A DNA stretch of 42,773 nucleotides. Origin: Homoserinimonas sp. GTDB lineage: Bacteria; Actinomycetota; Actinomycetes; Actinomycetales; Microbacteriaceae. Within the stretch, counting starts at the first letter, position 1. Every line of letters starts with the position of its first letter. Positions 3,031 through 15,729 of the stretch are shown here, piece after piece. Made by a program: the position numbers and the translations under genes. A model generated the notes under the pieces. It worked only from the letters and a program-made list of their open reading frames with translations. It had not been told where the DNA came from and did no database searches. The stretch lies in contig JAODMI010000087.1 of assembly GCA_025464755.1 (NCBI GenBank), forward strand, positions 1-42,773. Direction: 5' to 3'.

Positions 3031-3723
3031 CTAGACCTTGCTGGCTTTCAGCATGTACCCGAAGCCGCGCTTGGTCTGGATGACAGGCTCGTCCGAGTAC
3101 TGGTCGAGCTTGCGGCGAAGGTAGGAGACGTATGACTCGACAATGCCTGCATCACCGTTGAAGTCGTACTCCCACACGTGATCGAGGATTTGCGCCTTGC
3201 TGAGCACCCGATTCGGATTCAACATGAGGTAGCGAAGAAGTTTAAACTCGGTCGGGCTTAACTCGATCTGTTCGTTGCCGATCGTGACCTCATGTGTGTC
3301 CTGGTCCATCGTGAGCTCGCCCGCCCGGATGATGGCATCCTCTTCATCCTGCATCGTCCGGCGCAGAATGGCTTTGATGCGGGCCACGATCTCGTCCAAG
3401 CTGAAGGGCTTGGTTACGTAGTCGTCGCCGCCGACTGTGAGGCCGGTTATTTTGTCTTCGGTGTCGTCTTTCGCCGTCAGGAACAAGATGGGGGCGGTGT
3501 AACCGGATGCCCTCAGTCGCTTGGTCACGCCGAAGCCGTTCATGTCAGGCAACATCACGTCGAGGATGATCAGGTCTGGTTCCTCTTCGAGGACGGCTGA
3601 GATGGCTTGGGCGCCGTTACCAACGGCACGTACGGCGAAACCGGCAAATCGGAGGCTGGTGGTCAGAAGGTCGCGGATATTCGGTTCGTCATCAACGATG
3701 AGAACTCTTGGTCCATCACTCAT
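3031..3723 (-). CDS. OmpR/PhoB-type response regulator
   Basis: Receiver domain (VLIVDDEPNIRDLL, LIILDVMLPDMNG, KPFSLDE) plus winged-helix C-terminus (SPTEFKLLRYLMLN...VESYVSYLRRKLD); directly upstream of the kinase. Confidence 0.95.
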   Translation of the reverse strand: MSDGPRVLIVDDEPNIRDLLTTSLRFAGFAVRAVGNGAQAISAVLEEEPDLIILDVMLPDMNGFGVTKRLRASGYTAPILFLTAKDDTEDKITGLTVGGDDYVTKPFSLDEIVARIKAILRRTMQDEEDAIIRAGELTMDQDTHEVTIGNEQIELSPTEFKLLRYLMLNPNRVLSKAQILDHVWEYDFNGDAGIVESYVSYLRRKLDQYSDEPVIQTKRGFGYMLKASKV

Positions 3724-9390: not shown

Positions 9391-9774
9391 ATGCCTACCG
9401 GCAAGGTCAAGTTTTACGACGAAGAGAAGGGCTTCGGCTTCATCAGTTCTGATGATGGTCAGGAGGTCTTTTTGCACGCCTCTGCGCTGCCATCCGGTAT
9501 CACCGCGGTTAAGGCGGGCACGAAACTTGAGTTTGGAATCGCTGACGGCAAACGTGGCGCTCAGGCGCTTTCTGCTCGCATCGTCGACGCGCCGCCGAGC
9601 CTGGCCAAGATGAGCCGTAAGCCGGCAGATGACATGGCGATCATTATCGAAGACCTGGTCAAGCTGCTCGACGGCATTGGTACCAACCTCAAGCGCGGCC
9701 GCTATCCAGAATCAAGTCACAGCAAGAAGATTGCCGCCATGTTGCGTAAAGTCGCGGACGAACTGGATGTTTGA
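9391..9774 (+). CDS. Cold-shock domain protein (CspA/CspB-type with C-terminal extension)
   Basis: MPTGKVKFYDEEKGFGFISSDDGQEVFLHASAL with RNP1/RNP2 motifs; about 60 aa extension. Confidence 0.95.
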   Translation: MPTGKVKFYDEEKGFGFISSDDGQEVFLHASALPSGITAVKAGTKLEFGIADGKRGAQALSARIVDAPPSLAKMSRKPADDMAIIIEDLVKLLDGIGTNLKRGRYPESSHSKKIAAMLRKVADELDV

Positions 9775-10441
9775 AGCCCGTTCCGCAGACTTCGCACTCG
9801 CTAAAACGGCCTTGCTGGAAATCACACCAGCGAGCACCGTTGGTCAACCCGCCGGCTCCATCGATGAGGGTGACGGTGTTATCTCGGTCTATTTTGAGAA
9901 CACCATGCCGGGTTACATCGGGTGGCGTTGGACTGTCAGCATCGCGCATGTGGCAGACGCACAGCCAACGGTTCTCGAAACCGAGCTGACCCCTGGCGAC
10001 GGCGCACTGTTGTCGCCGGAATGGATTCCCTGGGCCGACCGTCTTGCCGACTACACGGAGGCGCAGACGGCCGAAGGGTTGGTGGCCGATCTGGTCGATG
10101 GTGAGCCGGACGACGACTTCGATGACGACGATGATGTCAACGACGATGAGCCATTGCTGCACAGCGGCGACCTCGACGGGGTCGATATCGATTCGCTAGA
10201 AGATGTCGACGATGATGATGACGACGACGACGATGACGATGACGATGACGATGACGACGACGATGATGACGAAGACGACGATGATGAAGACGACGATGAC
10301 GACGATGACGACGACGACGACGACGATGATGACGACGATGAAGACGACGATGATGTCAACGACGATGAAGATGATGACGACGACGATGAAGATGATGACG
10401 AAGATGACGGTGACGAGGCCGAAGACGACGTGCGCCGATAG
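9767..10441 (+). CDS. DUF3027 family protein with poly-Asp C-terminal tail
   Basis: MFEARSADFALAKTALLE...MPGYIGWRWTVSIAHV...LLSPEWIPWADRL; start overlaps the csp stop (ATGTTTGA). Confidence 0.88.
   Translation: MFEARSADFALAKTALLEITPASTVGQPAGSIDEGDGVISVYFENTMPGYIGWRWTVSIAHVADAQPTVLETELTPGDGALLSPEWIPWADRLADYTEAQTAEGLVADLVDGEPDDDFDDDDDVNDDEPLLHSGDLDGVDIDSLEDVDDDDDDDDDDDDDDDDDDDDDEDDDDEDDDDDDDDDDDDDDDDDEDDDDVNDDEDDDDDDEDDDEDDGDEAEDDVRR
10201..10422 (+). repeat. GAC/GAT trinucleotide tract encoding poly-Asp/Glu
   Basis: About 220 bp of almost uninterrupted GAY/GAA codons. Confidence 0.97.
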
Positions 10442-13936: not shown

Positions 13937-14213
13937 ATATCAGCGCACCCCCGATGCGTGACCAGTGCGACCCGCGCTGCGGCGCACTGCGCTACCACCG
14001 GGCGCATTCTGGGCGATATCAAATTTGACGGGTGCGATTTTACGTAACTGCGTTAATCTGTAGTTCTGCAATTCTTCGCGATCGATTCGGGAGAGCCGTA
14101 TGAATGAGGGCAGCGCCATCCACGCCTTGGATGCCCGCCGCCCTGTGTCGCTGTCGCGGCACGGACTCATACGCCCGGGCGGACGACGCGGCGCACTTTT
14201 CTGTGCGCCTGAC

Positions 14214-14248
14214 AAAAAAGGCACTGCCATCTGGGCGGTGCCTTTTTT
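14214..14248. terminator. Bidirectional Rho-independent-like terminator
   Basis: AAAAAAGGCACTGCC-atct-GGGCGGTGCCTTTTTT, with one G:T-type imperfection. Confidence 0.85.
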
Positions 14249-14322
14249 GTACCCTCCGGTTGAGGCGAGAGTTGCGTATCGGATACCTGGAAGCCGTCCA
14301 GGGCGATATCGATGGGAGCAGT

Positions 14323-14820
14323 ATGCGCACTCTGGTGTTGAACGCGGGATTTGAACCACTTGCTGTCGTGTCTTTCAAACGGGCGCTGGTGCTCGTGATG
14401 AATGAGAAAGCCACAGTCATCGCTCACGATGCGGAGCATCCCGTGTTGGGGTTGTCGCACTCATATGAACGCCCCTCGGTGATCCTGTTGACCCGGTATG
14501 TGCGCATTCCCAATTCGCGGCTGATTCCGGTAAGCAGGAGGGGTGTGCTGCGTCGGGATGATTCGCGGTGCGCCTATTGCGGAGGCCACGCCACCACTAT
14601 TGACCATGTGCTGCCCCGGTCACGCGGTGGAGATGACAGCTGGGAGAACCTGGTCTCGTGCTGCCTGAAATGCAACAACCTGAAAAGCGACCGCACCCCG
14701 AGGGAGATGGGATGGTCGTTGAGGTATCGCCCGCAACCGCCGCACGGGACCACATGGCTGGTGCGCGGGGTAGAGCGCACACAGCCGCAGTGGGAAGAAT
14801 ACCTCGCACCTGCTGCGTAG
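14323..14820 (+). CDS. HNH endonuclease family protein
   Basis: MRTLVLNAGFEPLAVVSFKRALVLV; CAYCGG-HATTIDHVLPRSRGGDDSWENLVSCCLKCNNLKSDRTP. Confidence 0.95.
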   Translation: MRTLVLNAGFEPLAVVSFKRALVLVMNEKATVIAHDAEHPVLGLSHSYERPSVILLTRYVRIPNSRLIPVSRRGVLRRDDSRCAYCGGHATTIDHVLPRSRGGDDSWENLVSCCLKCNNLKSDRTPREMGWSLRYRPQPPHGTTWLVRGVERTQPQWEEYLAPAA

Positions 14821-15016
14821 CGGGAGCTCTGGTGCTGATCGCGCCTGCGCACCCGCCGGGTTAGCGCGTGCTTCGATCGCGGCGTTGGTCAACGCTCGAC
14901 ACCGCCGACCGGGCAGACCCAAAACCGGCATGACCCAAGCTGTGTGCAGCAGCATCCGCTTCTGCCGTGAGATCAGCTAAAGCCTCCCAGCCGCGCTCGG
15001 CGGGAGCGCTCTCCGC

Positions 15017-15035
15017 CGGAAGAGCAGTTCCGTCC
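15017..15035 (+). repeat. Partial tRNA-Arg(CCU) copy (att-like)
   Basis: 19 of 19 identical to 15582-15600, with weaker similarity continuing (CAAAGGAACG vs TAAGGAAACG). Confidence 0.8.
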
Positions 15036-15131
15036 CAAAGGAACGCAGGGGCTTTTCTGGTGCCCATTTGGTACCCCATTCCCCCGCTACTTCCCTGTAT
15101 TTCCGGGGATTTATCCCTCCACCTAATGAAC

Positions 15132-15158
15132 GTTGGCAAACCTATTGTTTGCCAACGG
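15132..15158. repeat. 11-bp perfect inverted repeat, 5-bp spacer
   Basis: CGTTGGCAAAC-ctatt-GTTTGCCAACG. Confidence 0.9.
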
Positions 15159-15203
15159 TTGTGTATACCTTTGTGTAGACCTATACCTGAGCCAACAAAG
15201 AAG

Positions 15204-15231
15204 GGCCACGGGCTCCTACAGCCGTGACCCA
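15204..15231 (-). terminator. Candidate minus-strand terminator hairpin inside the relict element
   Basis: Minus strand GGGTCACGGCTgtaggAGCCCGTGGCCC followed by TTCTTTGTT. Confidence 0.5.
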
Positions 15232-15566
15232 GCTCAATGCAAGGAATAGGCAAGGACTGAACATGAACAACTTCCATTGCGCGTACCACAGAAGACCAAC
15301 GCATATCGGAGTCATAAATGGGGCGGCACGGTCCGCCCATAGTAGATAAGGAGAAGGGGCGCCACTGGCCCCCTAACCCCTAACCGGCCGGGTCTGAATC
15401 TCACTATAACTATTAGCGATATTCCTTTTAGTGATGCGCATTGCACAGTGCGCTCAAAGCTGCACGTATTCTTGGGGGGGATGGGTTGAAGTCAAGGGAT
15501 GTGTAGCCCTGTGTGTACACTTGCCGAAGATCCATCACCGCCGATCCCAATGATTTATTGGTATCC

Positions 15567-15638
15567 GCCTCTGTAGCTCAACGGAAGAGCAGTTCCGTCC
15601 TAAGGAAACGGTTGGGGGTTCGAATCCCTCCAGGGGCA
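15567..15638 (+). tRNA. tRNA-Arg (anticodon CCU)
   Basis: GCCTCTG/CAGGGGC acceptor arms, anticodon loop GTCCTAA, T-loop GGTTCGAATCC; CCA not encoded. Confidence 0.95.
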
Positions 15639-15729
15639 CCTGCGTATCAGCCATTCTTGCCCAAAGTGCGAGGTCGAACGTCACCCTTCCATCGAGCGTG
15701 GGGGACGTTCAGATGCCCTTCGCGTTCAC

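Follow-up and report, generated by a model that had tools for sequence, protein, structure and literature searches.

Prophages of the usual actinobacterial type, which integrate at tRNA genes by means of a tyrosine integrase, share a core with the target gene, carry arm sites on both sides of that core and an integrase gene beside the phage attachment site (attP), and restore the tRNA on integration. Their attachment (att) cores typically take in the tRNA 3' half (Guerrero-Bustamante and Hatfull 2024, PMC10865867), and in bacteria the original promoter almost always continues to drive the tRNA gene after integration (review PMC8371274). Archaeal pTN3-like elements instead use the 5' half, a case seldom met in bacteria (PMC8371274). 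In tRNA-dependent lysogeny the disturbed tRNA gene is left unrestored, and the phage brings a separate tRNA gene in its stead (PMC10865867). Here, a locus in Homoserinimonas sp. is compared with these systems. The window is the whole stretch analysed, 42,773 nucleotides of contig JAODMI010000087.1, which belongs to a draft assembly of 2.1 Mb in 192 contigs. Positions 15017-15581 are very probably the shell of a prophage at tRNA-Arg(CCU) that lost its interior by deletion, leaving the tRNA restored as a phage/host chimaera. Support comes from the repeated core, the layout of the arm sites, homology of both arms to phages, an apparent lysogen of the same design (G112) and short gaps at the corresponding site in relatives. 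Comparisons were made with 400 genomes of the same family (G numbers) and with viral contigs, including L135-L138 from IMG/VR; L numbers denote single sequence stretches.

ARAGORN places tRNA-Arg(CCU) at 15567-15640 on the plus strand, and an Rfam search returned nothing above threshold except tRNA. The 19-mer CGGAAGAGCAGTTCCGTCC, spanning the D-arm to anticodon-loop segment, lies within this gene at 15582-15600 and again, on the plus strand, at 15017-15035, where it aligns with the phage attP core. This exact duplication had been noticed in a preliminary description of the sequence; the two copies are the only ones in the assembly, even with up to two mismatches allowed, and they place a direct repeat of the target tRNA at both ends of the shell. 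Just inside each end is a pair of TGTGTA repeats, at 15160/15172 and 15500/15512. The layout and 12-bp spacing had been described correctly, but the first pair had been set 1 bp too far to the right, at 15161/15173. All four sites share one orientation and form a single repeat family with spacings of 12, 328 and 12 bp, and they occupy places that align with arm-type repeats in phage attPs, which makes them putative integrase-binding sites. The double-site pattern TGTGTANNCYTNTGTGTANNCYT has just two exact matches in the assembly. GC content is 0.49-0.54 across much of 15000-15600, compared with about 0.60 in the outer flanks.

Scanning the viral contigs with GGAAGAGCAGTTCCGTCC recovered four phages (L135-L138), each with a tRNA 5' half whose 3' half is altered or missing and with an integrase nearby (coverage 406/406 amino acids). 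The tyrosine integrase of L138 has 417 amino acids and begins about 300 bp past the core; those of the other three are 97-99% identical to it. A fifth, more divergent contig, L144, combines the same half tRNA with an integrase that is 56% identical and starts about 1.5 kb past the core. Intact attP-integrase regions with this core, arm repeats and a tyrosine integrase, a search for which had been suggested earlier as a check, are present in all five phages. Together with G112, they have the same core, tandem repeats 12-13 bp apart and in the same orientation on both sides, and an integrase beside or near the P' arm. This agrees with the earlier suggestion of a deletion relict with arm sites just inside each end. 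No tRNA gene was found in the phage stretches L136-L138, L140 and L144. Among 22 viral contigs with the tRNA 5' motif, a half tRNA occurs only in the 5'-half clade, and the rest have whole tRNA genes.

From the left core to about 15393, the window aligns with the phage P' side: an acceptor-like strand with a T-run, a GCAAAC inverted repeat, the arm-site pair, a leader hairpin, a micro-open reading frame (micro-ORF) and the integrase start follow one another. Local alignment scores, computed with the core excluded, were compared with those of shuffled sequences. For the P' arm (15038 to about 15393), scores were 222 against L138, 188 against L144 and 154.5 against G112; shuffles gave 40.5 ± 7.4 (maximum 79.5) for L138, and means near 40 with maxima below 80 for the others. 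The P arm, a stretch of some 75 bp directly before the tRNA, scored 58.5-63.5 against L135-L137 (shuffles about 27 ± 5), barely above the best shuffle against L138 and L144, and not above it against G112. It could be supposed that the interval is host regulatory DNA, with the repeats as regulator sites and the 19-mer as a stray tRNA fragment. The tRNA piece is the sole homologue of the interval in the 400 family genomes, which means that host conservation provides no test of this idea. Nevertheless, the continuous homology to phage attP-integrase regions, with order and spacing kept, refutes it in practice, and it retains almost no probability. Searching phage and plasmid records with the interval by BLAST gave tRNA genes or chance matches only. 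A kinship of the 27-bp stretch at 15081-15107 with tRNA-Met elements in G152 and G062 was rejected: with 400 genomes searched, its E-values come close to chance, and the alignment to the phage P' arm fits better. In G152, L100 (G152:C23, 3563-5637) is a 2-kb tRNA-Met remnant that retains an integrase and a direct repeat of 64 bp, with matching TGTGG-CACATTTTGGACACAAC sites close to each end.

An HNH endonuclease gene (14104-14820, plus strand; Pfam HNH) is the conserved left neighbour of tRNA-Arg(CCU), and this order is widespread in the family. The gap between the HNH stop codon and the tRNA is 38-49 bp in four relatives (G035, G001, G026 and G027) and 746 bp in the window, which supplies the empty sites that the preliminary description had proposed to look for. 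Other relatives have gaps of 244-284 bp (two genomes) or 1.2-11 kb (others). Ranging from 38 bp to more than 10 kb in the family, the HNH-to-tRNA-Arg(CCU) interval may serve as a general hotspot for insertions upstream of this tRNA.

Among the 400 family genomes, G112 encodes a related integrase, 65% identical. On one G112 contig, the HNH gene is followed by two more genes, a host-type GTAAACT, the tRNA 5' half, a P' arm, the integrase and phage genes; on a second contig, a P-type arm with TGTGTAGTCC precedes a whole tRNA. Although the two contigs are unjoined, G112 appears to be a lysogen whose integrase end retains the cut-off host promoter and 5' half, and whose working tRNA has a new upstream region. 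A scan of genome contigs with the L138 integrase found no relative, and an order-wide integrase search at E <= 1e-90 yielded nothing in addition to G112, itself missing from the hits in that sample.

By this design, the P side of the ancestral attP would have carried the tRNA-Arg(CCU) 5' half and an upstream region, and the opposite side would have held the core, P' arm, leader and integrase. A crossover within the D-arm/anticodon-arm segment would have set the entire prophage upstream of the tRNA and cut off the host's promoter and tRNA 5' half at the integrase end; the supply of a 5' half by this clade explains the upstream position of the element. The tRNA would have been rebuilt from the phage upstream region and 5' half and the host 3' half. 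By analogy with G112 and the phage attPs, the part of the present gene up to about 15600 is probably phage-supplied, and its 3' half is the host's. An internal deletion, starting near the first codons of the integrase gene and stopping shortly before the P arm, would then have followed. We infer both the exact crossover and the deletion event; selection on the tRNA upstream region may have preserved that end.

The integrase gene expected beside attP is absent from the window, while the leader up to the integrase start is retained, and this combination points to a relict rather than an element. As had been supposed, no integrase is left: none of the cognate family was found anywhere in the assembly at E <= 1e-60. 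The last phage-similar stretch (15350-15393, plus strand) contains the integrase start and the left edge of the deletion, since the L138 local alignment stops at 15393. Between it and the P arm, positions 15394-15489 matched nothing in the 400 family genomes or the phage alignments. Homologous arms around an unmatched middle are the expected remnant of an internal prophage deletion.

Two other origins were considered for this structure. With both arm pairs and both cores present, the interval could be a small non-autonomous element that has kept its att ends and is moved by the integrase of another phage. However, it is single-copy in its genome, the 400 family genomes contain no second copy or matching shell, and the assembly yielded no cognate integrase. 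Moreover, excision at these cores would take the tRNA 5' half away and join an unrelated flank. Such an element is thus very unlikely, and an assembly artefact, in which the contig joins both ends of a prophage that is intact in the population, is equally so. The fragmented draft assembly and the unexplained left flank would suit an artefact, but an interior of about 96 bp matching neither arm stands between the homologous stretches, the left stretch ends near the integrase start and not at a repeat, and the assembly contains no prophage contig or cognate integrase of this type.

Several observations weigh against the deleted-prophage explanation, among them the left flank (14821-15016). It lacks the stranded host promoter and tRNA 5' half that G112 retains at this place (GTAAACT followed by the 5' half), and the mismatch with the tRNA 5' half reported in the preliminary description is real. 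As a consequence, a second rearrangement must be assumed, which would have occurred later and ended at the left core. The flank is single-copy in its own assembly, and searches for its origin gave no result: no convincing homologue was found in the 400 family genomes or its own genome, six-frame translation was fruitless, and a 5' half decayed by indels could not be demonstrated. In addition, the right half of the left core is changed (CCCAAAGG versus CCTAAGG), the P-arm similarity is short (about 75 bp), a misjoin is possible in a draft of 192 contigs, and the G112 junctions sit on separate contigs, which makes its intact lysogen a probable one.

The P' arm contains several features. It starts (15036-15060, plus strand) with the anticodon-stem partner GGAAC, an acceptor-strand mimic CAGGGGC (15046-15052) and TTTTCT, which together with the tRNA 5' half are predicted to fold into a tRNA-like terminator without a T-arm. 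This tRNA-shaped fold, closed by ACAGAGGC or CAGGGGC and followed by Ts, is predicted for L138, L144 and the joined halves of the window (z -2.2 to -2.7), and is absent in G112. Next comes the inverted repeat CGTTGGCAAAC-CTATT-GTTTGCCAACG (15131-15157), kept between core and arm sites in related phages. A GCAAAC...GTTTGC inverted repeat occupies this position across the integrase family, including L153 (vB_MoxS-R1) and L182, regardless of the tRNA half carried. The P' arm-site pair follows at 15160-15182 (plus strand); L144 has TTGTGTAGACCTTTGTGTAGTCTT at the same place.

Downstream of these sites, a minus-strand hairpin with a T-rich tail had been read as the possible end of a deleted gene. 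The hairpin is real (15203-15230, z = -2.7), but it is the conserved leader hairpin between P' and the integrase: L138, G112, L182 and L144 have it with different stem sequences, in which changes on both sides keep the pairing. A micro-ORF of 28 amino acids, MNNFHCAYHRRPTHIGVINGAARSAHSR, follows at 15263-15349 on the plus strand. Its motif, HRRPxHxGVINGAxWSAHxR, also precedes the integrase in L138, L144, L149 (G112) and L182, and all 28 codons are still open in the relict. It might, as a guess, encode a leader peptide.

The P arm (15490-15566, plus strand) is the present upstream region of the tRNA and contains the arm-site pair at 15500-15522, a palindrome at 15543-15565 and, at the -10 position, the hexamer TGATTT (15551-15556). 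At -16 to -11 relative to the tRNA, the sequence in most relatives is TANACT. In L135, L136 and L138, TAAATT stands exactly at the host -10 position and scores 7.4, where the 99th percentile of random sequence is 3.4; the hexamers of L137 (4.8) and L144 (3.6) score lower, and neither that of the window (0.7) nor that of G112 (-2.7) is convincing. Judging from these hexamers, the phages likely supply a tRNA promoter, and the P arm of the window may drive its tRNA.

Supply of the 5' half is seen in the attPs of L135-L138 and L144 and at the G112 junctions; for the window, P-arm homology suggests it. Phage L182 (IMGVR_UViG_3300026116_000282, 3671-3717) has the other half of tRNA-Arg(CCU), the 3' half, combined with the P' layout of the 5' types. 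Its integrase is 67% identical to that of G112, and a small tree groups it with the 5' types in one fully supported clade, without resolving the inner branching order. Polarity therefore varies inside one integrase clade. The more distant G172 likewise has the tRNA 3' half. Microbacterium phage vB_MoxS-R1, with an integrase 43% identical, shows the same P' order (hairpin, GCAAAC inverted repeat, tandem TGTGTGCA-type sites, integrase), but its attP-side sequence, read by eye, resembles a tRNA 3' half.

Taken together, these data allow a broader proposal, which is made tentatively. One phage integrase clade would have switched between tRNA 3' and 5' halves at a single tRNA gene; in the 5' type, the P side would bring a tRNA promoter of the phage's own, and the P' side a terminator shaped like a tRNA that silences the stranded host promoter. 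In a lysogen, we infer from the predicted fold that this terminator would end transcription from that promoter ahead of the integrase leader. After decay of the prophage, an essential tRNA of the host would depend on upstream DNA of phage origin.

Compared with the usual actinobacterial prophages (PMC10865867), the difference is that this design supplies the 5' half and severs the host promoter from the gene. Integrases of the pTN3 type (PMC8371274) likewise use the tRNA 5' half as the bacterial attachment site (attB), and the restored tRNA is expressed from an element-borne promoter. However, those elements are archaeal and the promoter is described as that of the integrase, whereas these are bacterial phages with a P arm away from the integrase and an unsplit integrase gene. 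In tRNA-dependent lysogeny (PMC10865867), integration likewise disturbs a host tRNA gene and the phage compensates, but the junction tRNA is complete both in the window and in G112. As a remnant, the relict itself is of an ordinary kind; the clade that supplies the 5' half is a rare variant and an interesting one. With bacterial phages that capture the front part of a tRNA gene and sisters that keep to the usual mode at the same tRNA, the change of mode becomes testable. The case also indicates how host tRNA expression can come to rest on viral DNA left by a dead prophage, and that tools seeking only tRNA 3' fragments displaced to the downstream side would overlook 5'-half elements. Elsewhere in the window, an open reading frame at 9629-10441 has a very long aspartate-rich tail.
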